Positions 7,170 through 24,359 of a stretch of DNA of 31,282 bases are shown here, in pieces. The stretch is taken from IMG/VR virus record IMGVR_UViG_3300009503_000082, positions 1-31,282 of that record; one strand, written 5' to 3'. Numbering within the stretch: the first letter of the stretch is position 1; each line of letters starts with the position of its first letter. Made by a program: the position numbers and the translations under genes. The stretch comes from a virus. Under the pieces are notes generated by a model. That model was not told the origin of the DNA, did no database searches, and worked only from the letters and a program-made list of their open reading frames with translations.

Positions 7170-10100
7170 ATGCAGCTTTTCGCCACGGACGTTGACCGGC
7201 TTGCCTTTCTTCTGGAGACGGACGCGTCGCGCCACCTGGAGCGGCTTCTTGCCCAGGCGGCTGAACTCGTCACCGAGGAACTGCCGGAAGACGAGCGTCC
7301 GAAATACATAACCAACTACATCGGCTCTAAACAGAAGCTGGTTGACTGGATATGGAAGCACACGCCGGAGGGCGTGGAGTCCGTCCTCGACGCATTCTCG
7401 GGTTCGGCCGTCGTGGCCTATATGTATAAGACCAAGGGCCTGCGGGTTCTTGCCAACGACCGGCTGAACTACTGTTATCACGCCGCACGGGCCATCGTCG
7501 AGAACGACAGCGTGCGCATCAGTCAGGAAGAACTCGACGAACTGCTTGCGGATAATCCGAAGGCCGGAACCTTCGTCCGCGACAACTTCAAAGGACTATT
7601 CTTCGCCGACGGCGTCCACAAGGTCATCGACCAGATCCGCGCGAACGCCGACAAGCTGGAGGGCTACAAGAAAGACATCGCGCTCTTCGCTCTCGGCAAG
7701 ACCTGCATGTCCGGCAAGGGCGGCTTCGGGCACTTCTCTTCCTCGACCGACTACGGGAAGCGCCAGGACACTCCCGAGGAGTTCAAGGAGCGCTTCGCGG
7801 ATAACGTCGGGCGTATCAACGCTCTCGTCTTCGACAACGGCAAGGAGTGCAAGGCTTACCGGAAGGACGTCAACGATATGCTTTCCTGGGCGAAGATAGA
7901 CCTCGCCTACTTCGACCCGCCTTACGCGACCGAGTTCTCCACCACCAACTACGAGAAAAGCTATCACTTCGTCGAGGGTCTGATGACCTACTGGGACGGC
8001 CTCACGCTCGTCGAAGACTCGAAGACTCACCACTACGAGACCGAACACAAGACCGTCACCAAGGCCAACGCCAAGGAGTTCTTCTCGACGTTTCTTGCAA
8101 ACGCCAAGCATATCCCGAATTGGCTCATCTCTTACCGCGACCACGCCTACCCGAACGAAGGCGAGATGAAGCAGATCATCTCGGCAAGCGGCATGTCGAG
8201 CCGGATGGAGTCGCAGCAGCATCACTACCACATCTCTTCCCGCCACTCGGAGAACTCCCAAGCCACGGAGCGACTCTTCATCTGCTCGAAAGCGAACGAG
8301 ATGAAGCAGGCCGCAAGCCTCTGCCCGGCGTGCTCTCAGCAGGCAATGGAGACAGAAGCCCTCTGGGATGAGACCGCCAATGAGATCCGCTATCGCGTCC
8401 GCGACCCCGAGGATTTCGAACCCGACAGCTTCAGGCGCAAGGCTCTCGATGGGGTGGACGGCGTCGCCATCATCGTCGGCAAGCTCAAGAAGGAGCACGT
8501 TCCGCAGGGACACGATCCCGAGGTGATGGTCTTGCAGGCTTATCGCTTCGCCAAGAAGACCGACTCCAACCCCGACGGCTGGACACCTGGGAAAGCCAAG
8601 GAGTGGATAAGGCAGCACGAGCCGGAAGCCTCCACGGCCGAGATTCGGACCGAAGAGAACATGCGCGCATTGGCCGACGCGCCGCTTGCGGACGAGATCG
8701 ACCTGCTCTCCTGCCAGGCCGGGCTTGACCTGGTCAAGGTGACCGGCTACATGGGCAACAAGTTCACGATGCTCGGTTGGATCGAGCGGCAGATTCCAAA
8801 GGACGCAAAGACCGCTCTCGACGCATTTTCCGGCGGCGCAAACGTCGCTTACCATTTGAAGCGAAAGGGATTGAAGGTCATCGCAAATGACCTGCTGCTC
8901 TTCCCTTACCACGTTGCCCGAGCCGTCGTCGAGAACTCACACGAGACGCTCTCGGACGAGGATATCGAGAGGATTCTGGCTCCCAATCCCAACGCGGGCA
9001 CGTTCATCGTGGACAACTTCAGCGGCTACTACTACACCAAGCGGGTGCTCTCCTGGCTCGATCAGGTGTGGGCGAACATCCAAAAGCTCTCCGGCTACAA
9101 GAAGGATCTGGCGCTCGCGGCGCTCGGAAACACGGTCAAGGCGAAGAGCCTCTACGGTCAGTTCCATCGCTCGAAGATCAACCTCAAGGCCGATGCAGGC
9201 GGGTTCAAGGAAAGCCAGCTCACCAGCATTCCGATTTCCAGCATGGTGGAGAGCTTCAAGCGTTACGCCAATCAGCTCAACCGGCTTGTCTTCGACAGCG
9301 GCCAAGAATGCAAGGCTTTCCACGGCGACGCGGTAGAGGCGGTGCGGAAGTACGGCGCGGACGTGCTGTATCTCGATCCGCCCTACATCACGGAGTTCTC
9401 GAACAACGACTACGAGTATTCGCTGCACTTCGTCGAGGGCTTGATGAACCGCTGGGCGGACAAGGAGCTTCTCGACGACAACCGGCGCAGCTACAAATCC
9501 CGAACTCACTACGATCGCGAAAGCATCCGCGCGCTCATCGAGAATCTGGCTTCTGAGTCCCGCGGCAAATACAAGACCGTGATCATGTCCTACCGCGACC
9601 ACGCATTCCCGACGGAGAAAGAGATCCGCGACATCTTCGCGGAGCGGTTCGGCCAGGTTCGGGTGAAGAGCATGGATGTCGAGTACGGCATCGTGCTCGG
9701 CAAGGGAGGTGAGGGCAAGAACGGACGTGAGCTTCTATTTATAGCGTCCAATTCCAGGCAGGCTCCCAGGTCAATCGCTTCGGCCGGTGTCTCAAACTGC
9801 CACACAGCTATCCCCGTGGAAGTGAGTCTGAACAACAAGGACGGACTCTCGGCCGAGGCGATTGACCTCAACCCCAACGCCGGCGACCCGCAGTTCGGCT
9901 TCATCATGTGTCGAGCGGGCACGAACCGCAACGGCGACCACTTCACCCCGGACGAGCTCGCCGCGCGCTACACCACGGCCATCAACAAGAAGATAGACCT
10001 CAAGCATTCCCAGGAACTCACGGACATCGTCGGCGGCATAGTCGCGGCCGACTTCGTGGAAGACGAGACGGGCGGGCGCGTCGAGTGCGTAGGCGAGCTA

Positions 10101-11024
10101 TATGCGGCGGAAGCCCCAGCCGCCGCGCTCGCCTACAAGCTCATGAAGAAGGGCATCATCTCCCAAGTCTCGATGGAGTGTGACTACGAGACAGGGGAGT
10201 GCTCGATTTGCGGCAAGACGGTAAGCAACAAGAACGACTACTGCCTGCATCTTCGGAAGTTCAAGGGCGCGGAGTATCAGGGCAAGCCGGTGTTCGAAAT
10301 CCTTCACGGCGTCACATTCACCGGCCTCGGCCTCCTCGATAGGAAGGGAGCCGACGACAACGCACGGATAACCCAGGTCGCCTCGGACAAGACGGGGCGG
10401 GCAGAATATACAACCTCAGGAGGCAACTCATTGGAAGATGTGAAGAACGAACACGAGACCGACGAGCAGCGCGAGGAAGCTGCAAAGAAGAAAGATTCTC
10501 CGGGCGGCGGAGGCGCTCCCCCGGTCGACGACAAGGCCCGGATAAAGGAGCTTGAGGCGGAGAACAAAGACCTCAAGAACCAGGTGCTTGAGCTTCAGAA
10601 GCGCGTGGACGAGCTCGAGGCGGAAAGCAAGGCGGCCGCGAACAAGGCGCGCGCGCAGAAGCTGATGCGGAAGTTGGAGAAGGCGGGGATGTCCTTTGCC
10701 TCTGACGAGGACAAGGAGCAGGAACTGACGCGGCTCGCCGGTCTTTCCGACGACGCGTTCGCGGCGACCGAAGCCGCTTACGACAGGGCGATCCAGGCCA
10801 AATCGGAATGCCCGAACACCGGCAAGCAGGACGCTGACAAGGGCACGGGCTGCGAGGCGAAGTCCGCATCCGCTTCGACGGACCGACAGATGCGTTCGAA
10901 TGCGGACGTGCGGCCCGCAGACGTCGACGACAAGAAGCTTTCCCTCGAGGACAAGCTTCGAGACGGATTCATGATTGCCTACCGTGAGCGAGTCGGTCTC
11001 GTCGGCGCGGGCAAGAGCAACTAA
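7170..11024 (+). CDS. fusion of two D12-class adenine DNA methyltransferase modules, prohead protease and scaffold
   Basis: One uninterrupted frame of 1,284 residues. Module 1 (about 45-375) has a Dam-like YIGSKQKL start, SAM motif LDAFSGS (73-79) and DPPY (249-252). A linker with CPAC and a phage-type domain (RVRDPEDF, about 395-490) follows. Module 2 (about 525-860) repeats the pattern: YMGNK, LDAFSGG (550-556) and DPPY (736-739). Residues about 905-1090 match capsid-maturation proteases, with probable catalytic His946 (DLKHSQE) and Ser1001 (SQVSME), plus an inserted zinc-like C1011-x2-C1014-x10-C1025-x-H1027. Residues about 1120-1175 form a strong coiled coil, as in scaffolds fused to proteases. 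The start has GGAG at 7160-7163. No internal start with a good ribosome site is evident, so a true fusion is favoured. The protease would trim scaffold and perhaps release the methyltransferases; this last point is inference. Confidence 0.85.
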   Translation: MQLFATDVDRLAFLLETDASRHLERLLAQAAELVTEELPEDERPKYITNYIGSKQKLVDWIWKHTPEGVESVLDAFSGSAVVAYMYKTKGLRVLANDRLNYCYHAARAIVENDSVRISQEELDELLADNPKAGTFVRDNFKGLFFADGVHKVIDQIRANADKLEGYKKDIALFALGKTCMSGKGGFGHFSSSTDYGKRQDTPEEFKERFADNVGRINALVFDNGKECKAYRKDVNDMLSWAKIDLAYFDPPYATEFSTTNYEKSYHFVEGLMTYWDGLTLVEDSKTHHYETEHKTVTKANAKEFFSTFLANAKHIPNWLISYRDHAYPNEGEMKQIISASGMSSRMESQQHHYHISSRHSENSQATERLFICSKANEMKQAASLCPACSQQAMETEALWDETANEIRYRVRDPEDFEPDSFRRKALDGVDGVAIIVGKLKKEHVPQGHDPEVMVLQAYRFAKKTDSNPDGWTPGKAKEWIRQHEPEASTAEIRTEENMRALADAPLADEIDLLSCQAGLDLVKVTGYMGNKFTMLGWIERQIPKDAKTALDAFSGGANVAYHLKRKGLKVIANDLLLFPYHVARAVVENSHETLSDEDIERILAPNPNAGTFIVDNFSGYYYTKRVLSWLDQVWANIQKLSGYKKDLALAALGNTVKAKSLYGQFHRSKINLKADAGGFKESQLTSIPISSMVESFKRYANQLNRLVFDSGQECKAFHGDAVEAVRKYGADVLYLDPPYITEFSNNDYEYSLHFVEGLMNRWADKELLDDNRRSYKSRTHYDRESIRALIENLASESRGKYKTVIMSYRDHAFPTEKEIRDIFAERFGQVRVKSMDVEYGIVLGKGGEGKNGRELLFIASNSRQAPRSIASAGVSNCHTAIPVEVSLNNKDGLSAEAIDLNPNAGDPQFGFIMCRAGTNRNGDHFTPDELAARYTTAINKKIDLKHSQELTDIVGGIVAADFVEDETGGRVECVGELYAAEAPAAALAYKLMKKGIISQVSMECDYETGECSICGKTVSNKNDYCLHLRKFKGAEYQGKPVFEILHGVTFTGLGLLDRKGADDNARITQVASDKTGRAEYTTSGGNSLEDVKNEHETDEQREEAAKKKDSPGGGGAPPVDDKARIKELEAENKDLKNQVLELQKRVDELEAESKAAANKARAQKLMRKLEKAGMSFASDEDKEQELTRLAGLSDDAFAATEAAYDRAIQAKSECPNTGKQDADKGTGCEAKSASASTDRQMRSNADVRPADVDDKKLSLEDKLRDGFMIAYRERVGLVGAGKSN

Positions 11025-14792: not shown

Positions 14793-16640
14793 ATGCCATC
14801 ATATCTATCGCCTGGAGTCTACACACGGGAAACGGACTTCAGCTTCTACATCAAGCAGATCTCCACATCCGCCTGCGGGATGATCGGGATAGCGGAGAAA
14901 GGCCCTATCAACAAGCCGACGCTTGTCACAAGCTGGGAGCAGTTCGTCCGCAAGTTTGGCTCGTACATCCCTGACGGCTATCTCGCATATGCGGCGCGGG
15001 CGTTCTTCGACAACGGCGGACAGGTGCTCTACGTTAACCGCGTGGAGCATTATGACTGGCCGACGGACCCTGACAGCATAATGGCCATTAAGGCAGTCAC
15101 CACATTGATGGACCGGGAGGGCGTCGCCGCGTCACTTACGACCGGAACGACCGGGACAAACCGAATCACCTGGCGGGCAAAGAACATAGGATCGCTCGGC
15201 AACAATATCCAGGTTGCGGTCATCAAGAGCGGGAACAACACTCCTCTCTCGGTAAGCGTCAGCGGGCAGACCATCACGGTCAATCTGGCTACCGACGCAT
15301 CCGGCAACGCGACCAGCACGTGTTCACAGGTAGTAACAGCAGTGAACAACAACGCATCCGCATCCACGCTGATCCAGGCCACGCACATCGACTACGGCAT
15401 AGTCGGTCCATTCGCCGCCACGCCACTGACCGGCGGACAGAACGCGCGTCCGTCAGTCAACGTCTTCGCTCTCTCCGAAGGTGCGTGGGGAAATAGCCTG
15501 AAAATAGAGATCACTGACAGCACGGTCGATCCGGCCAACCTTTTCAATCTCACCGTTCGACATAAAGACGAAGTAGTGGAGTCGTTCAGAGACCTCTCGA
15601 TGGACGTTACACACCCATCCTACGTTGAGACGGCCATAAATGAGCGGTCAGAGTATATCACCGTCGAGGACTGCGAGATGCCGACAACCCCGGCGCTCCG
15701 TCGCCCATTAGTTGGCGGCTTTGCCATGAGCTATGGCGAGGATGGGACGGACAATATGCAGGACGAGGACTACATCGGCGACCAGGCGGCACGCACCGGT
15801 CTCTACGCTTTCGATGGTAATGAGAGTCTCAATCTCCTGCTTGTGCCAGGTGTGACCAGCGCGACGGTCATACACGCCGGAATCGCGTATGCCGAGAGTC
15901 GCAGAGACATTCTTTTCATTGCGGAAGCGCCCTTGTTCGTCAACCCGCTCGAAGCGGTAGACTTCCGCAAGGGCAAGGGAATGTTTTCCCACGCGGCGTT
16001 CAACTCCTCTTACGCGGCCTTGTATTATCCGTGGATCGAGATATCCGATCCGCTCACGGGCAAAAAGAAGCTCGTTCCGCCAACAGGGGCTGTCGCGGGC
16101 TGCATCGCCAGAAGCGACGAGAAAGCCGAGGTCTGGTGTGCGCCCGCCGGTATCGACCGAGGTCGGGTGTTCAATGCCTTGTCCCTGGCCTACAAGACCA
16201 GCCGGGGCGAGCGGGACGTGCTTTACCCGGAAGGAATCAACGTCATCGCTTCGTTCCCGGACACCGGCATCAACATCTGGGGACAGAGGATGCTGCAGAG
16301 TCAACCGTCCGCAACGGACCGCATCAACGTTCGCAGGCTGATGATGTACATCGAAGAGGCGATTTCGCAGTCGTCGCGCTTTGTGGTCTTCGAGCCGAAC
16401 AACCGAGAGACCTGGCGGGCGCTAGTGCGGCTTATCACGCCGTTCCTGCAGAACATCAAGAGCAAGGGCGGGTTCTATGACTTCCGCGTGCAGTGCAACG
16501 AGGAGTCGAACCCTCCGGCAGTGATCGACCGGAATGAAATGGTATGCCGCGTGTTCGTGAAGCCGACGAAGACCGCCGAGTTCGTTGAACTCAACTTCAT
16601 CCTGACCGCGACCGGCGCGAGCTTCAGAGAGATACTGTAG
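14793..16640 (+). CDS. contractile tail sheath protein
   Basis: The 615-residue product begins with the diagnostic sheath N-terminus YLSPGVYTRE and continues with GMIGIAEKGP and a conserved C-terminal half that includes EAISQSSRFVVFEPNN and the region around WRALVRLITPFLQ. The sheath polymer surrounds the tube and contracts to drive it into the host envelope. Residues about 115-214 form a Thr/Ser/Asn-rich inserted domain (SVSVSGQTITVNLATDASGN) of the type seen in other phage tail proteins, probably a surface-exposed lobe. GGAGGT lies just upstream of the ATG. Confidence 0.95.
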   Translation: MPSYLSPGVYTRETDFSFYIKQISTSACGMIGIAEKGPINKPTLVTSWEQFVRKFGSYIPDGYLAYAARAFFDNGGQVLYVNRVEHYDWPTDPDSIMAIKAVTTLMDREGVAASLTTGTTGTNRITWRAKNIGSLGNNIQVAVIKSGNNTPLSVSVSGQTITVNLATDASGNATSTCSQVVTAVNNNASASTLIQATHIDYGIVGPFAATPLTGGQNARPSVNVFALSEGAWGNSLKIEITDSTVDPANLFNLTVRHKDEVVESFRDLSMDVTHPSYVETAINERSEYITVEDCEMPTTPALRRPLVGGFAMSYGEDGTDNMQDEDYIGDQAARTGLYAFDGNESLNLLLVPGVTSATVIHAGIAYAESRRDILFIAEAPLFVNPLEAVDFRKGKGMFSHAAFNSSYAALYYPWIEISDPLTGKKKLVPPTGAVAGCIARSDEKAEVWCAPAGIDRGRVFNALSLAYKTSRGERDVLYPEGINVIASFPDTGINIWGQRMLQSQPSATDRINVRRLMMYIEEAISQSSRFVVFEPNNRETWRALVRLITPFLQNIKSKGGFYDFRVQCNEESNPPAVIDRNEMVCRVFVKPTKTAEFVELNFILTATGASFREIL

Positions 16641-16652
16641 GAGGTCTGTACG

Positions 16653-17111
16653 ATGGAAGTGACAATGCCCCAGAGCCTCTACCAGAACTGGCAATTCGCC
16701 ATCGAGATAAACGGCTTCGACGTGGCGCTCTTCAAGAAAGGGCAGGAGCCGAAGACCGAGTTCGAAGAGGTTGCCTTCGCTCCGGCCGGCTCGATGTTCG
16801 ACCAGAAGGTCGCAGGCCGCATTAAGTTCGAGGACATCACGCTCGAAAAGGGCGTGCTCGCTGATGGGTCGGATGAGTCCGCTCGCGACTGGGTGCGCAT
16901 CCAGGCCGACGTGAACTACGGAGTCGGCGCGTTGCCGGAGGAGTATATGCGCGATATCGACATCGTGCGTTACGACCGGGCGGGAAACGAGACCCGCCGT
17001 TGGACGCTTCACGGCGCGTGGGTTAAGGCCCTGGAATACGACGAGCTCGAGGGCGGCAGTTCAGACAACACCATCGAGAAGATCACGATCTGCTACAACT
17101 ACTGGGACTGA
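16653..17111 (+). CDS. tail tube protein (T4 gp19-like)
   Basis: The 152-residue product follows the sheath and starts at an ATG with AGGAGGT at 16639-16645. The N-terminal FAIEINGFDVALFKK strand and C-terminal WTLHGAWVKALEYDELEGGS are characteristic of T4-like tube proteins (phage_T4_gp19 family), in which the end forms the ring-to-ring interface. These subunits stack as hexamers to make the inner tube that contracts through the sheath. Gene order sheath then tube confirms the call. Confidence 0.93.
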   Translation: MEVTMPQSLYQNWQFAIEINGFDVALFKKGQEPKTEFEEVAFAPAGSMFDQKVAGRIKFEDITLEKGVLADGSDESARDWVRIQADVNYGVGALPEEYMRDIDIVRYDRAGNETRRWTLHGAWVKALEYDELEGGSSDNTIEKITICYNYWD

Positions 17112-17117
17112 CGGAGG

Positions 17118-17801
17118 ATGGACTTGTATACATTTATATTACCGACCGGCAGTGAGATAGAACTTAGAGAGATGACCGGAGCAGAGGAGGAACTGCTCAC
17201 TAATCATCGGCTTATTCGCAACGGTGACGCGGTGAACCAGGTTCTCGCCAACTGCATCCTGCGGGTCGGCGACAAGGATGATGTGACGAGCAAAGATGTC
17301 CTCGATATGCTCTCCGGCGACAGGCTCTTCACCCTGGTGAAGCTTCGCCAGATATCGCTCGGAGACGAGGTAGAGCTTGAGCTTGTCTGTCCGAACACGG
17401 CCTGCCGTGCCAAGAACAAGGTAACGATCAACCTCGACGATTTACCGGTCACACCCTATGGCGCGGAGCGAGAGTTCATATTCACGCTTCCCGCTTCGGG
17501 ATCCAAAGTGCGGTTTGTCTATCTCGACGGTCACAAGGAGAAGCGGCTTGCGCAAATGCAGGAGCCGTCAATCTCCGCTGCAATGCTGATCCGCATCCTG
17601 GATATCGACGGCAGCGCGCCATCCAAGAAGGCTCTTAACGAGATGTCCATGCGGGACCGCAATGCGCTCCGGCAGGAGATGCTGCGCGTTGACGCTGGCA
17701 TCGACACTGCCGTCGAACTCGACTGCGATTCCTGCGGAACGCGTATTCGCACTAGACTTGAGGCCGAGCCCTCTTTTTTATTCCCCGGAGTTCGGTTGTA
17801 A
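17118..17801 (+). CDS. T4 gp26-like baseplate/tail assembly protein, frame-0 product
   Basis: The 227-residue product resembles the T4 base-plate protein family of contractile systems: an N-terminal TGSEIELREMTGAEEELL segment, a central LFTLVKLRQISLGDEVEL segment, and two cysteine pairs (C91-x4-C96 and C203-x2-C206) that could bind zinc. It lies between tube and tape measure, the place of tail assembly chaperones. The Shine-Dalgarno GGAGG (17113-17117) abuts the ATG, so the in-frame TTG at 17124, six bases away, may be the true start. Near its 3' end lies the slippery heptamer TTTTTTA, from which ribosomes can shift -1 into the next frame to give a 277-residue product. Confidence 0.85.
   Translation: MDLYTFILPTGSEIELREMTGAEEELLTNHRLIRNGDAVNQVLANCILRVGDKDDVTSKDVLDMLSGDRLFTLVKLRQISLGDEVELELVCPNTACRAKNKVTINLDDLPVTPYGAEREFIFTLPASGSKVRFVYLDGHKEKRLAQMQEPSISAAMLIRILDIDGSAPSKKALNEMSMRDRNALRQEMLRVDAGIDTAVELDCDSCGTRIRTRLEAEPSFLFPGVRL
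17774..17780 (+). promoter_or_regulatory. -1 ribosomal frameshift site (T TTT TTA)
   Basis: In frame 0 the codons are TCT TTT TTA, giving an ideal X-XXY-YYZ slippery heptamer. A -1 slip leads into an open frame of 56 codons that ends at 17950 and has no ATG, GTG or TTG of its own. Programmed frameshifts between tube and tape-measure genes are well known in tailed phages. Confidence 0.85.
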
Positions 17802-17950
17802 GGGACGCGTTCTTCCTCGCCTACGGCGGACTGCACTGGGAATACGCGGAGGTCGCAAGACTACCGCTCCGCACCCGGGAACAGTTTGTCCAGGCGCTGG
17901 AGAACCAGCTTGACTATGAGAAACAGGAACTGGAGCGAAGCAAGCGATGA
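17780..17950 (+). CDS. -1 frameshift extension (DUF6760-like tail)
   Basis: The 56 codons read from ATT at 17780 to TGA at 17948-17950 and encode FFLAYGGLHWEYAEVARLPL and a helical end. This resembles the short DUF6760-like proteins that follow the gp26-like gene in contractile tail operons. The frame is closed upstream by TGA at 17759-17761 and contains no canonical start, so it is most simply made as the C-terminal 56 residues of a 277-residue frameshift product. The stop overlaps the tape-measure ATG (17947). Confidence 0.8.
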   Translation: MPRSSVVRDAFFLAYGGLHWEYAEVARLPLRTREQFVQALENQLDYEKQELERSKR

Positions 17951-19959
17951 TGAGTGATCTGGGCCTCGGCATAATGGTGAGCCTGAAGGACGCCTTCACT
18001 CAGAACGCGACGCGCATCCAGTCCTCGATGGAGTCGCTCGATTCATCCGTCGCCAAAGCGAGCGAGAACATGACGCGCAATCTTGGACTGATCGAAAAGG
18101 GCACGATGATGGTCGGCGCGGGGCTTGCGCTTCTTGCTGTGCCTACCGCGCTCGTGGCGTCCACTGCTGCGACTCAGAAGGCTCTCGGTGAGCTTGCCTC
18201 TGTCGGTGTGAAAGACTTCCGGGCAATGGAAGATGCGGCCGAGTCGTTCACCAACCAATGGGCAGGGACGAACAAAGCCGAGTTCATTACGGCCGCCTAT
18301 GACGTGAAGTCCGCGCTTGCCAGTCTCTCCGACGAGGCTGTCGGGACATTTGCTTCCATGGCCGCGCTAACGGCCAAAGCCACCAAAGCCACTACCGAAG
18401 AGATGGTCGGCACGTTCACCACTGCCTACGGGATCTTCAAGCCCATAATGCAGGATATGTCTGACATAGACTGGGCCAAGACCTTCTCAGGAGCGCTCGC
18501 TCAGACCGTCGCTCAGTTCAAGACCACCGGTCCACAGATGGCCGAGGCCATAAAGAACGTGGGCGCGATTGCGGCAGCGTCCAATGTGCCTCTGCAGGAG
18601 CAGATGGCGATCCTCGGGCAGCTTCAGACAACGATGCCCGGTTCCGAGGCAGGCACGCTGTACAAAGCGTTCATGATGAAGGTCGCTGAAGCCGGTGACG
18701 AACTTGGGCTATCGTTCGTAGACGCGGGCGGAAGGCTCAAAGGCATTATACCTATCCTTGAAGAGGTAAAGCGCAAGTTCCCTGACCTCTCCCAAGCCGC
18801 TGCTCAGGTGAAGCTCAAGAAAGCGTTCGGTTCCGACGAGGCCGTGCGGTTCCTGCTGCAGATGTCGATGGGCATGGACCAGCTCGAAGGCAATATCGAG
18901 AGCGTCGAACAGGCAATGAGATCAGGCACTTTGACTACCGAACAGATGGCTCAGGCCATGAACCAGGATATCGGCTCGCAGTTTACTCTCGTGAAACAGC
19001 AGGTCGCGAACCTTGCCGAGATACTCGGTCGAACGCTGCTGCCGGTAGTGATCCCAGTCTTCCAGGCGGTCTCCCACTTCATCCTCTACCTGCAGGGCGT
19101 CGCGAAGTCGGCCCCGGGAGTGACACGGGTAATTCTCACCATGTGTGTCGCCCTCGGTGCAGTGCTGGTTGTGGTCGGCAGTGTCACGGCCGCGCTTGGA
19201 ACAGTAGGCATCATGCTTCCCGCGATCAAGGCTGGCATAGCCGCGCTCGGCCCGATGCTCGCCGGAGTGGGGTCGGCGGTGTCGGCCTACTTCTGGCCGG
19301 TCGTGGCCGTGATCGCCGCAGTGGTCATCGCCGTGATTGCTCTCAGGAAGGCCTGGGAGACCAACTTCGGCGGGATACGCGACGTGTTGCTTGGCGCGTG
19401 GAACAAGGTGTGCCTCGCGTTTCAGGGCATACGGGCGCTCATCGGTTCACTCTCAGGCGGCAGCGGCCAGATGTCCGCCGAGCTTGCAAAGAAGCTCGAA
19501 GCGGCGGGGCTGATGAAGTTCGTTACGACAGTGTTCCAGGTCTACTACCGCGTGCGGCAGTTCCTGACCGGGCTGTGGCAGGCGTTCTCCTCCGCATTCG
19601 GAAAGATTCGCGCGATCCTTGAGCCTCCGATCCGAGCTATTATGGGCGCGTTTGCCGAGCTTGGTAAGGCGTTGCTCTCGGTATTCGGCATCTTCGGCAA
19701 GACCGCGACATCGGTCGACTCGGCAACGTTTGCAAGCCTGGGGCAGACCCTGGGCAAGGTGCTCGGGGTGATCGCGCAAGTCGGAGCGCATCTCCTGAAG
19801 TTCGTCATCTACAACCTTGTGTTCGTTATCCGCGTTGTGACGCTGGTTGTGCGGGCTGTGGTCTGGCTTGGCCGGGTCATCATTGGGGCATTCGTCACGG
19901 CGGCCCCTACGTCTACAAGTTCTTCCTGCCGCTACGGATGCTGGTCCAGGGATTCCTGA
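17947..19959 (+). CDS. tail tape measure protein, N-terminal part (frameshifted)
   Basis: This 670-residue frame begins at an ATG overlapping the previous stop. It has a helical N-terminus, hydrophobic stretches (about 50-70 and 395-460), and a phage tape-measure core (about 75-345) with GTFTTAYGIFKPIMQDMS and LQEQMAILGQLQTTMPGSEA. Tape measures set tail length and are ejected with the DNA. The last 20 or so residues (after GAFVTAAP) are out of character. The frame that continues the protein begins at the same spot in the next reading frame, so the two parts form one gene of about 1,209 residues split by an apparent one-base deletion near 19904-19907. Confidence 0.9.
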   Translation: MMSDLGLGIMVSLKDAFTQNATRIQSSMESLDSSVAKASENMTRNLGLIEKGTMMVGAGLALLAVPTALVASTAATQKALGELASVGVKDFRAMEDAAESFTNQWAGTNKAEFITAAYDVKSALASLSDEAVGTFASMAALTAKATKATTEEMVGTFTTAYGIFKPIMQDMSDIDWAKTFSGALAQTVAQFKTTGPQMAEAIKNVGAIAAASNVPLQEQMAILGQLQTTMPGSEAGTLYKAFMMKVAEAGDELGLSFVDAGGRLKGIIPILEEVKRKFPDLSQAAAQVKLKKAFGSDEAVRFLLQMSMGMDQLEGNIESVEQAMRSGTLTTEQMAQAMNQDIGSQFTLVKQQVANLAEILGRTLLPVVIPVFQAVSHFILYLQGVAKSAPGVTRVILTMCVALGAVLVVVGSVTAALGTVGIMLPAIKAGIAALGPMLAGVGSAVSAYFWPVVAVIAAVVIAVIALRKAWETNFGGIRDVLLGAWNKVCLAFQGIRALIGSLSGGSGQMSAELAKKLEAAGLMKFVTTVFQVYYRVRQFLTGLWQAFSSAFGKIRAILEPPIRAIMGAFAELGKALLSVFGIFGKTATSVDSATFASLGQTLGKVLGVIAQVGAHLLKFVIYNLVFVIRVVTLVVRAVVWLGRVIIGAFVTAAPTSTSSSCRYGCWSRDS

Positions 19960-21575
19960 TGGTCGGCCGTGTCGCCTATACGGTCTGGCGGATGATAACG
20001 GGCCAGGTGTCGGTGGTGGATGGTCTAAAATCCATCGCTACCGCGATCTATCAGTATCTCTCGACTCCATTTTCATGGGTGCGAGACGTGGCATCGGCGA
20101 CGTGGGATTTCCTGCGCGGGCTGTTCTCAGGCATAGGCGGGTTCTTCACATCGGCGGGGTCGGCGCTACTATCGGCGTTCCTCAACCTGCCATTGGTAAG
20201 CACCCTCTCGCGCGTGTTCGGTATAGCCCGCGCATTCCTGTCCGGCCAGTTGAGCTTTGCGGATGCCGGAAAGAGAATACTCATCACGCTTGCCCAGGGC
20301 ATCTGGTCTGCCGCGACCTATCCGTTCAATATGCTCAAGCGCGCTCTGGGCTGGCTAAGGAGACTGCTGCCGTTCTCGGACGCGCCGGAGGGACCACTAT
20401 CATCTCTGACGGCGTCGGGCGCGGCGCTATTGCGGACGCTTGCCCAGGGCATGTTGTCAGTCATAGGTCTTCCGGCACAGGTCCTGAGCTACGTATTTGG
20501 GCGAATGCTGGATGGCGTCCGGTGGACATGGGATGGCCTGAAGTCGATAGGCTCACAGGTCGTATCGACCCTGTCCGGCGCACTCTCGACCGGCGCGCAG
20601 ATCGCGAGTTCAGCATGGAACGGGATTGCGGGCATTGTTTCGTCGGGCTGGAATGCGGTTGCGTCCATAGGCTCGTCTGCATATTCGTTTGTGTCTGCTC
20701 CGTTCAGGTGGGTGGCTGGAATCGCCGGGTCCGCATGGTCGCAGGTCACTGGGTTTGCATCATCAGCCTGGTCAGGCATTCGTTCGATGGCGTCATCCGC
20801 CATTGGCTGGCTGAGATCGCCGTTTTCGAGCCTTGTGGGATTCGCGTCATCAGCGTGGGCAAACATTCGAGGCGCGGCCTCGAGCGCGTTCTCCTCCATT
20901 ATGTCAGGAGCCCGAAGTCTCATATCCAGCGCGTTCCAGAGTGGTCGTTCGATGATGACTACGATAGCATCGGGAATTCGCTCGGCAGTGTCGGTTCCTT
21001 ACGAAGCTGCGAAATCCGTCCTCTCCAGGCTCAGACGGCTCTTGCCGTTCTCGGACGCCAAGGAAGGGCCGCTGTCGACCCTGACTCGGAGCGGAGCGGC
21101 GATGCTGGAGGCGTTCAGCTCAGGAATAACGGGAGCGTCTAGGCTCCCGGCGCGGGCGTTCGAGCAGGCTTTCGGGTTTGCCAGACAGATGGGCCGATCG
21201 GCGATTGTTCCAACGGCTCTCGCTGGCACTTTGGCTCTGACTCCCAACATCGCGGGTGCAATGCCTCAGATCACTGCCCCAGTGGTCGCAGGGCAGAAAG
21301 TTGTCGATACGGCGGGCACCTCACGTGGCTCCGAGCGGTCCCGGTTGTTGGCCGTCACACGCGGCGCGCTGGGATCGGAAGCTAGAACGGGCGCGCCAGC
21401 ACTCGGGTCGGAGGATGCCCGTCCACTGCTCGAGGCGATCATCGCCAAGCTGGATCGCGTTGCGGAACGGCCGATTGAGGTGTCAGTCACGACCACACTC
21501 GACGGTCGAAAGATTGCCCAGGCGGTCTACAAGGACATGCGGGAGAGAAAGGTTCGAAACTATGAGACGGCCTAA
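19938..21575 (+). CDS. tail tape measure protein, C-terminal part (frameshifted)
   Basis: The 545 codons from ATG 19938 continue the tape measure. The same frame is open further upstream and reads GGPYVYKFFLPLR just before it. Two copies of a tape-measure motif, RRLLPFSDAPEGPLSSLT (near residue 140) and RRLLPFSDAKEGPLSTLT (near 365), confirm that this is the same family. Between them are repeated SSAWNGI/SSAWSGI-type segments. A weak ribosome site and the uninterrupted upstream frame argue that the ATG is not a genuine independent start. If both are translated separately, the gene is broken; if one base is missing through a sequencing error, it is intact. Confidence 0.85.
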   Translation: MLVQGFLMVGRVAYTVWRMITGQVSVVDGLKSIATAIYQYLSTPFSWVRDVASATWDFLRGLFSGIGGFFTSAGSALLSAFLNLPLVSTLSRVFGIARAFLSGQLSFADAGKRILITLAQGIWSAATYPFNMLKRALGWLRRLLPFSDAPEGPLSSLTASGAALLRTLAQGMLSVIGLPAQVLSYVFGRMLDGVRWTWDGLKSIGSQVVSTLSGALSTGAQIASSAWNGIAGIVSSGWNAVASIGSSAYSFVSAPFRWVAGIAGSAWSQVTGFASSAWSGIRSMASSAIGWLRSPFSSLVGFASSAWANIRGAASSAFSSIMSGARSLISSAFQSGRSMMTTIASGIRSAVSVPYEAAKSVLSRLRRLLPFSDAKEGPLSTLTRSGAAMLEAFSSGITGASRLPARAFEQAFGFARQMGRSAIVPTALAGTLALTPNIAGAMPQITAPVVAGQKVVDTAGTSRGSERSRLLAVTRGALGSEARTGAPALGSEDARPLLEAIIAKLDRVAERPIEVSVTTTLDGRKIAQAVYKDMRERKVRNYETA

Positions 21576-22660: not shown

Positions 22661-22888
22661 CTATTGACCGGACTCCTCGTCGGCCCGTTTACGCCATTGC
22701 TTGATAAGCGTGGTCCAGTCTCTACGTGGTCTCACCAGACGCTGGCTCTGGATGAGTTCAAGCGCGTCAGCAGCTACCTGAGGCTTGATGATCCCCTCCC
22801 TCACGAGTTCGACCATCAAGTCATGCGTGTCCAGAACTTTCACGCCTTCTTTGCGCGCCGCTTGTTGCAGGGCCGAGTCTCGTGTCAC
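22661..22888 (-). CDS. PIN-domain protein, C-terminal part (frameshifted)
   Basis: This frame encodes the end of a PIN nuclease domain: VTRDSALQQAARKEGVKVLD supplies the late TRD aspartate, and a helical tail follows. The same frame is open upstream and reads PDLSCLVYARDNH, which is the missing third acidic motif of the PIN fold. The frame does not connect to the N-terminal part: one base is missing in the T-run 22956-22960 (A-run on the coding strand). The displayed start is therefore not a genuine independent start. The stop at 22661-22663 is 12 nt from the LysM stop, tail to tail, with no terminator visible. Confidence 0.7.
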   Translation of the reverse strand: MTRDSALQQAARKEGVKVLDTHDLMVELVREGIIKPQVAADALELIQSQRLVRPRRDWTTLIKQWRKRADEESGQ

Positions 22889-23208
22889 GAGCGGAATGTG
22901 ATTGTCTCTGGCGTATACCAGGCAGGAAAGGTCTGGGATGCTGGGTCCAATATAGTTTTTGCCAGGGTATCTATGTCTTTGATCTGATCACCCGTCAGCG
23001 TAACAACTCGTAGCCCCAATTGCTTGAGCATCAGTATGTTCGGCGTCTTTAGCTCCTTTTCCACAAAATCGGTCACGACCCAGCAATGCTTGAGATAGAA
23101 TATCTGGGAAAGAATTTGGGCTGCTTCCAAGTCGAATATAAGCGTGGCGTCAAGCACAGCTTCGTCCAGCTCATCGTTTCCAGCACCCTCAAGCCTGCAA
23201 TCGGCCAA
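22885..23208 (-). CDS. PIN-domain protein, N-terminal part (frameshifted)
   Basis: The 107-residue frame begins at TTG 23208 with GAGGAGA upstream. It has the PIN N-terminal pattern VLDATLIFDLEAA (D20 and D26) and VVTDFVEKELK (E50/E52). After LAKT the frame goes astray: the -1 neighbour (reading KNYIGPSIPDLSC, with one A added to the run) continues the domain. With one base restored the protein has about 182 residues. PIN proteins are metal-dependent RNases and frequent toxins. It is paired with the upstream XRE/ImmA gene, in keeping with a toxin-antitoxin-like pair that may now be inactive or affected by a sequencing error. Confidence 0.75.
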   Translation of the reverse strand: MADCRLEGAGNDELDEAVLDATLIFDLEAAQILSQIFYLKHCWVVTDFVEKELKTPNILMLKQLGLRVVTLTGDQIKDIDTLAKTILDPASQTFPAWYTPETITFRS

Positions 23209-23220
23209 GATAAGGTCTCC

Positions 23221-24309
23221 TCATCGTGAACCTGCGGTGGCTGCCGCACTTGATTGCTCGTGGTCCTGTCCATCCATCAAGACCTGATGCAGGTCGGAAA
23301 CGCTCAAGCCAAGCAACTCGGCGGCGCGGGACTCGGATATCATGCCATCGGTATAAGCTCTGGCCACCAGTCGTCTGTGCCGCGACGTGCGTTCGAGCGG
23401 ATAAGGCTCACCCAGTTCTCGCTTAGCCAGACCCCTCGCGCTCAACATCTTCCATACAGCGCGGTATGCGTTTTCGCTCAGGATTCCGAGGTCCCGTGCG
23501 CGATGAAGCCATGCCTGAACACTCATCCCATATTTGAGTTTGAGTTCGGATAGCTCCAGAAGCGATATGCGCGTCCTGCTCTTGCCGAGCTCCTCTATAG
23601 CTCTACTCTCTGGGACAAGAAAAGCTCCCGCGAACCGATGGACAGCTTTCTCCTGCTCCTTCTCAGTCCAGCATTCCGGGAACGTCAGAACCAGGTGTCC
23701 CAGTTCGTGAGCGAGGTCGAATCGAAAGCGATCACCGGGCTTGTTGTCGTTCACGACAATGATCGGGATTTCGGCATCAGGATACGTGCACCCATCGAAC
23801 TTACTGTCCTCACTTACACAGACAACCAGGATGCCGTGGTCCTCTAGCACTTCGATGAGATTCTCTATTGGATGATCCGCCAGCCCCCAGTGCCTTCTGA
23901 GTTCGTAGGCGCGTCCTTCCACATCCGATATGCGAGCGATGGGCTCTCGAAAAGAACTGGGCAATTCCAAAGCCCTGTGAGCATCGAGCGAGAATATCGC
24001 CTCGACTTCCAGATGGCGCTCAACTTGTAAGGTGACGGCGCTTTGCAAGGCGTGTCTGCTCCTCTGGCTCATGCTTGCACACTTGCGGTAGGCGGGCTCG
24101 CCCAATCGCACGGTCGTCCTCTTGAACAGATCGGCGGGCGACACCCCCAAGGCATCGGCAAGGGAGAGCAACACCGACGAACCGGGTGTATCCTTGTTTG
24201 TTTCGTAGTTTGAGATCGCCTGCGCGGAAACACACCCCATCTTCTCGGCGAGTGCTCGCAACGATAGTCCTCTCGCCAATCGTATCTGCCTAATGCGTTC
24301 GCCTAGCAT
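23221..24309 (-). CDS. XRE-family regulator fused to ImmA/IrrE-type metallopeptidase
   Basis: The 362-residue product starts at ATG 24309, with GGAGGA seven bases upstream; a longer frame exists but lacks this site. Residues 1-65 form an XRE helix-turn-helix (LRALAEKMGCVSAQAISNYE). Residues about 140-260 form a zinc-peptidase domain with HELGH (201-205) and AVHRFAGAFLVP (COG2856 type). The C-terminus carries ISESRAAELLGLSVSDLH. By family knowledge such proteins repress and can be cleaved or cleave partners to control neighbouring genes. Its partner here is the PIN gene, only 12 nt downstream. It lies on the opposite strand from the tail operon. Confidence 0.9.
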   Translation of the reverse strand: MLGERIRQIRLARGLSLRALAEKMGCVSAQAISNYETNKDTPGSSVLLSLADALGVSPADLFKRTTVRLGEPAYRKCASMSQRSRHALQSAVTLQVERHLEVEAIFSLDAHRALELPSSFREPIARISDVEGRAYELRRHWGLADHPIENLIEVLEDHGILVVCVSEDSKFDGCTYPDAEIPIIVVNDNKPGDRFRFDLAHELGHLVLTFPECWTEKEQEKAVHRFAGAFLVPESRAIEELGKSRTRISLLELSELKLKYGMSVQAWLHRARDLGILSENAYRAVWKMLSARGLAKRELGEPYPLERTSRHRRLVARAYTDGMISESRAAELLGLSVSDLHQVLMDGQDHEQSSAAATAGSR

Positions 24310-24322
24310 ATCGTGCTCCTCC

Positions 24323-24333
24323 ACTTGACAAGT
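24323..24333. promoter_or_regulatory. candidate operator overlapping the XRE promoter
   Basis: ACTTG-A-CAAGT is a perfect 5-bp inverted repeat with one central base. It overlaps the -10 box of the minus-strand promoter and lies 14 nt from the XRE start, so it is a plausible site for auto-repression by the XRE protein. This is inference. Confidence 0.5.
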
Positions 24334-24359
24334 ATACCTCAATTATCGGGTTTTGTAAA
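24331..24359 (-). promoter_or_regulatory. sigma-70-like promoter of the XRE/PIN pair
   Basis: On the minus strand TTTACA (complement of 24354-24359) and TATACT (complement of 24331-24336) are separated by exactly 17 nt, close to the consensus. A GGAGGA ribosome site and the ATG follow 20-25 nt downstream. It is the clearest promoter in the window and shows that the island has its own transcription. Confidence 0.8.

Follow-up and report, generated by a model that had tools for sequence, protein, structure and literature searches.

The window, by which is meant the whole 31,282-nt stretch of IMG/VR virus record IMGVR_UViG_3300009503_000082, carries contractile tail genes in the order sheath-tube-TAC-TMP, with the gene for a putative tail assembly chaperone (TAC) lying between those for the tail tube and the tape measure protein (TMP). 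The features referred to below are:

14793-16640, + strand: tail sheath protein (PF17482, 2.2e-15; PF04984, 5.4e-12)
16653-17111, + strand: tail tube protein, gp19 family (PF06841, 4.8e-28)
17118-17801, + strand: predicted TAC short form (TAC-N), a gp26-family protein of 227 aa (Pfam PF12322, PHROG 150)
17758-17763, + strand: Shine-Dalgarno (SD)-like TTGAGG, candidate stimulator, 10 nt 5′ of the heptamer
17774-17780, + strand: in-phase T TTT TTA slippery heptamer, seen in the sequence and kept in all 76 relatives
17780-17950, + strand: -1 frame tail of the predicted long form (TAC-C), 56 codons plus stop, without a start codon
17947-21575, + strand: tape measure gene (PF10145, 8.2e-27)

The tape measure gene of the window is split into overlapping open reading frames (17947-19959 and 19938-21575) in different frames, and in relatives with a readable end it is a single ORF encoding 1159-1352 aa; the split could be due to either mutation or an assembly error. 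Two further regions of the window can be mentioned here. On the minus strand, 22885-24342 holds a gene (P0002; PADLOC RmrA, 1.8e-55) that combines a helix-turn-helix with an IrrE-type peptidase and that, together with a small neighbouring gene of no assigned family, is reversed within the tail operon. An ORF of 1284 aa at 7170-11024 contains two stretches of D12-type adenine methyltransferase along with an extended C-terminal region.

Across the junction the zero frame reads CCC TCT TTT TTA TTC, with TTT at 17775 and TTA at 17778, and it terminates at a TAA (17799-17801). The -1 frame, which is closed by a TGA four codons 5′ of the heptamer, runs from ATT at 17780 to a TGA at 17948-17950 and includes no ATG, GTG or TTG among its 56 codons; its end shares an ATGA overlap with the tape measure ATG at 17947. 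A ribosome changing frame at the heptamer would produce a protein of 277 aa (221 + 56). These particulars agree with a preliminary description made from the letters alone, which had placed T TTT TTA in the correct phase at 17774-17780 and had noted a start-less 56-codon frame ending at the tape measure start. TTTTTTA is found once in the 31 kb, where a mean of 0.64 copies is expected by chance; a single copy is hence at chance level, and conservation must decide.

The 227-aa protein belongs to the gp26 family, as had been proposed: it matches PF12322 (T4_baseplate, comprising T4 gp26 and gp51) with an E value of 5.5e-16 and 59.3 bits, against a Pfam cut-off of 24.5, and it matches PHROG 150 with 1.4e-22. 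The AF2 model of the protein has a pLDDT of 92.7, and residues 1-84 of the model give the HK97 TAC (2ob9) as their best VIA-align match (Z 6.1, 79 aligned residues, rmsd 3.6), the next match being unrelated (Z 3.1). Foldseek with the 227-aa model returned a weak TAC match (E 1.5, probability 0.35). The modelled fold resembles that of the HK97 TAC; the match is moderate, but it stands alone. The preliminary description had set the position of the gene, typical of a TAC, against its membership of the gp26 and DUF6760 families, a contrast that dissolves since gp26 and gp51 (PF12322) are the T4-type tail assembly chaperone family.

Relatives of the 227-aa protein were collected from IMG/VR (59 loci) and from bacterial genomes (26 loci), the latter including Desulfobacterota, Ectothiorhodospira, Sulfidibacter, Holophagae, Planctomycetota, Armatimonadota, Chloroflexota, Halanaerobium and others, such that prophages of the clade span at least six phyla. 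The 76 genes that are readable form 28 clusters at <90% DNA identity, and all 76 (28/28 clusters) carry T TTT TT(A/G/C) in phase, 7 or 8 codons 5′ of the zero-frame stop; heptamer conservation was one of the checks that the preliminary description had proposed. The -1 frame is likewise open in all 76, extending about 47-50 codons beyond the zero-frame stop in contigs long enough to include the end of the frame, and its tail contains the conserved motif FFL(A/G)YGG. In the genes of this clade TTT accounts for 26% of Phe codons and TTA/TTG for 10% of Leu codons, while 9% of Gly/Ala/Ser codons have T in the third position, and the heptamer expected from codon use is about 0.002 per gene (∼0.2% of genes). 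Judged from the sequences, conservation of the heptamer and the -1 frame far exceeds chance and runs against codon bias. Past the zero-frame stop, variability at -1 frame positions 1, 2 and 3 is 0.27, 0.25 and 0.49, a third-position excess that marks the tail as under coding selection at the sequence level. One candidate exception without an in-phase heptamer (L056) was rejected as a decayed copy with an internal stop and a deletion that removed the tail. Another locus (L085) is a deletion remnant in which the gp26 gene has been joined to the tape measure gene.

The broken tape measure gene in the same contig could suggest that the junction too stems from an indel introduced into the T run during sequencing or assembly, or that the gene has decayed. 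This is refuted by the presence of the arrangement in 76 loci, among them complete isolate genomes such as those of Sulfidibacter corallicola and, with two copies, Desulfosarcina alkanivorans; the probability of an indel or decay is negligible. It could also be proposed that there are two separate genes, the tail being started independently after the gp26-like stop, by re-initiation or from a non-standard start. In some T4-like relatives the -1 ORF is indeed annotated as a separate gp51 gene, and in a few (Mendera, RL38J1, D491s) an ATG is located at the stop codon. Such an arrangement is absent from the clade itself: ATG, GTG and TTG are missing between the heptamer and the motif in 73 of the 76 genes (present in 3), and the -1 frame of the window is closed only four codons upstream. 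Even in those T4-like relatives that possess an ATG the U run is retained in phase, and many of the ATGs lie 3′ of conserved tail residues. Independent translation of the tail is therefore considered very improbable, and the comparison strongly supports the -1 frameshift, joining a gp26-like protein to a C-terminal tail, that the preliminary description had put forward.

Upstream of the heptamer, an SD-like GAGG or GGAGG ends about 10 nt before the slippery site. At least 4 nt agree with the SD consensus in 96% of the 28 clusters, compared with 29% of control stretches from the same genes, and at least 5 nt in 75% of clusters versus 13% of controls, although a conserved Leu-Glu-Ala in the protein partly dictates the element. 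In 25/27 clusters the Glu within the GAGG element is encoded by GAG, as against 9/28 for the next Glu, and in one-copy T4-like phages the SD-like element is found in 67% versus 21% in controls. A spacing of about 10 nt is that of the dnaX stimulator. From these comparisons we infer a stimulating role for the element. A stimulatory RNA structure was not found by RNAalifold (-4.4 kcal/mol, two-sided covariation absent), nor was a downstream RNA stimulator found from structure z-scores, which ranged from -0.1 to 1.1.

The run of six T residues at the slippage site (seven in L050) could also serve as a site of transcriptional slippage, with the long form translated from an altered transcript instead of arising on the ribosome. 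Runs of six are short for transcript slippage, and only ribosomal slippage explains an SD-like element at a dnaX-type distance; a transcriptional origin of the long form is accordingly thought quite unlikely. The preferred reading, to which we assign a probability of about 0.93 from sequence comparison, is that the locus encodes the TAC of a contractile-tailed phage and that short and long forms are produced by programmed -1 frameshifting. Most ribosomes would stop at 17801 to give the 227-aa TAC-N, and a minority would shift one nucleotide backwards on U UUU UUA, by tandem slippage stimulated by the SD-like element, to give a 277-aa TAC-NC. SD-anti-SD pairing at TTGAGG (17758-17763) would probably hold the slipping ribosomes. 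Many TAC-N and few TAC-NC molecules may then coat the tape measure protein, with the tube protein recruited by the C-terminal tail on the model of lambda gpG/gpGT; the occurrence of frameshifting, its efficiency and these binding roles are all predicted from sequence.

Genes of the same kind can be detected among T4-like phages. A PF12322 gene ending in T TTT TT(C/T/G) and followed by a -1 tail is found at more than 50 marine T4-like loci, and the U-run heptamer with a -1 tail is also present in cultured cyanophages, phiM12, Mendera, RL38J1, Aeromonas CC2, Cronobacter S13 and Vibrio D491s. The cultured one-gene phages that were counted (seven T4-like genomes) have only one PF12322 copy per genome. 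T4, 44RR, Kpn6N, ZZ1 and a Klebsiella phage encode a short gp26 and a fused long gp51 and have no U-run heptamer, the gp51 record of ZZ1 being broken into two pieces; where some T-even phages have two genes, these are thus a short form and an already fused long form. Vibrio D532, SUMAE and Salmonella allotria have one copy and a -1 tail without the full heptamer. The alignment between T4 gp51 and the fused product predicted from the marine loci spans the junction (3.7e-9).

A 2016 review, which also sets out the lambda model, described G-T frameshifting as widely conserved with T4 as an exception (PMC5009743). According to the accounts given in PMC10885494 and PMC12846349, it was subsequently reported that some T4-like phages carry a short gene plus a fused long one and that U-run signals occur in the TAC-N genes of others (Vladimirov, Gautam and Davidson, 2022, Virology 566:9-15). 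The interpretation of T4 gp26 and gp51 as short and fused-long paralogues is consequently not new, having been published in 2022 as referenced in PMC10885494, and, since T4-type U-run frameshifting is by that account already on record, the window locus adds to a known kind of TAC.

The tail had also been called DUF6760-like, a description that fails by one method and holds by others. The window tail gave no match to PF20546 (DUF6760) by hmmscan even at E 10, and searches of the -1 tail against Pfam, PHROGs and NCBIfam yielded nothing useful beyond one chance coiled-coil match. In a single pairwise profile comparison with hhalign, it aligned with DUF6760 over 42 columns (1.3e-6, probability 90.6). 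Furthermore, a Desulfobacterota genome contains a single uninterrupted gene of 286 aa (L235, 781-1641) that matches both PF12322 (4.2e-13) and, just under the family cut-off, DUF6760 (2.3e-5) in one frame. This gene, the only copy in its genome, lies directly 3′ of a tube gene and has a weak match to PF10109, the P2 E/Mu chaperone family (0.0021). The natural fusion indicates that the gp26-type head and the DUF6760 tail belong together, and at the level of sequence a relationship between DUF6760 and the window tail is supported.

DUF6760 itself is found in the -1 frame immediately after a zinc-ribbon, TAC-like protein, mostly of 121-160 aa, in 15 of 201 Chloroflexota genomes, most of the junctions reading G GGG GG(G/A) and others G GGG GAA; one such locus includes sheath, tube, eCIS_core, CIS_tube, PAAR and baseplate genes. 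The same -1 relation can be detected in replicons of Nostoc, Streptomyces and Paenibacillus and in one Desulfobacterota genome other than that with the fusion gene. A search for DUF6760 in Acidobacteriota had no result. Most junctions in the injection-system loci (L216-L230, L231 4527-5069, L234, L236-L238) read G GGG GGG or G GGG GAR, and the -1 DUF6760 frame there often has no start codon. The injection-system case appears less certain than that of the window because GTGA at some junctions could serve as a separate start. In a literature search covering few subscription papers, neither a mention of DUF6760 nor relevant work on frameshifting in contractile injection systems was found, and the apparent -1 placement of injection-system DUF6760 relative to a TAC-like gene is new as far as that search reached.

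In gp26 genes of Streptomyces and SP-15-like phages the tail is shifted by +1 (or -2) relative to the head (L099-L113, L087-L092, L094). One example of the junction in these phages is CTC TGA T, which resembles an RF2-type site, and the tails are annotated as separate truncated genes or left unannotated. In profile comparisons the Streptomyces-phage tail matches the window tail (3.5e-6), the P2 E′ tail (4.9e-5) and, in a single pairwise comparison, the DUF6760 profile (9e-8), and the P2 E′ tail matches DUF6760 (5.1e-6) and, weakly, the window tail (0.0097). It seems somewhat favoured that the TAC tails of P2, the window clade and Streptomyces phages form one family with DUF6760, and that non-phage extracellular contractile injection systems, in the 15 Chloroflexota, Nostoc, Streptomyces, Paenibacillus and the one Desulfobacterota, use the same short/long chaperone recoding with DUF6760 as the -1 extension of the TAC-like protein. 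Judging by the gp26-DUF6760 fusion and by the -1 arrangement at injection-system loci, such systems may also rely on short and long chaperones for length control. For annotation, gp26-family "baseplate hub" genes situated between tube and tape measure should be recorded as frameshifted tail assembly chaperones; current records give them as "baseplate hub", as a truncated separate gene, or not at all.

Among characterized systems, the lambda frameshift site is G GGA AAG, and the window locus is like lambda gpG/gpGT and the HK97 TAC in having a predicted short/long pair 5′ of the tape measure gene, with residues 1-84 modelled in a fold resembling 2ob9. Its gene order of sheath-tube-TAC-TMP and the type of its predicted -1 frameshift site are shared with P2 gpE/E+E′, where the site is T TTT TTG, although P2 E is only 91 aa and has no detected relation to PF12322. 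With T4-like gp26/gp51 and their one-gene relatives it has in common PF12322, a slippery U run and a start-less -1 tail, but the window phage differs in its prophage-type genome and in the location of the gene between tube and tape measure; the gp26-type protein heads are about 20% identical to T4-like ones, and the protein tail is nearer to DUF6760 and P2-type tails than to gp51. The DUF6760 (PF20546) of extracellular contractile injection systems lies, like the window tail, at -1 relative to a preceding TAC-like gene, whereas the site in those systems is G GGG GGG or G GGG GAR and the upstream protein is only about 121-160 aa.
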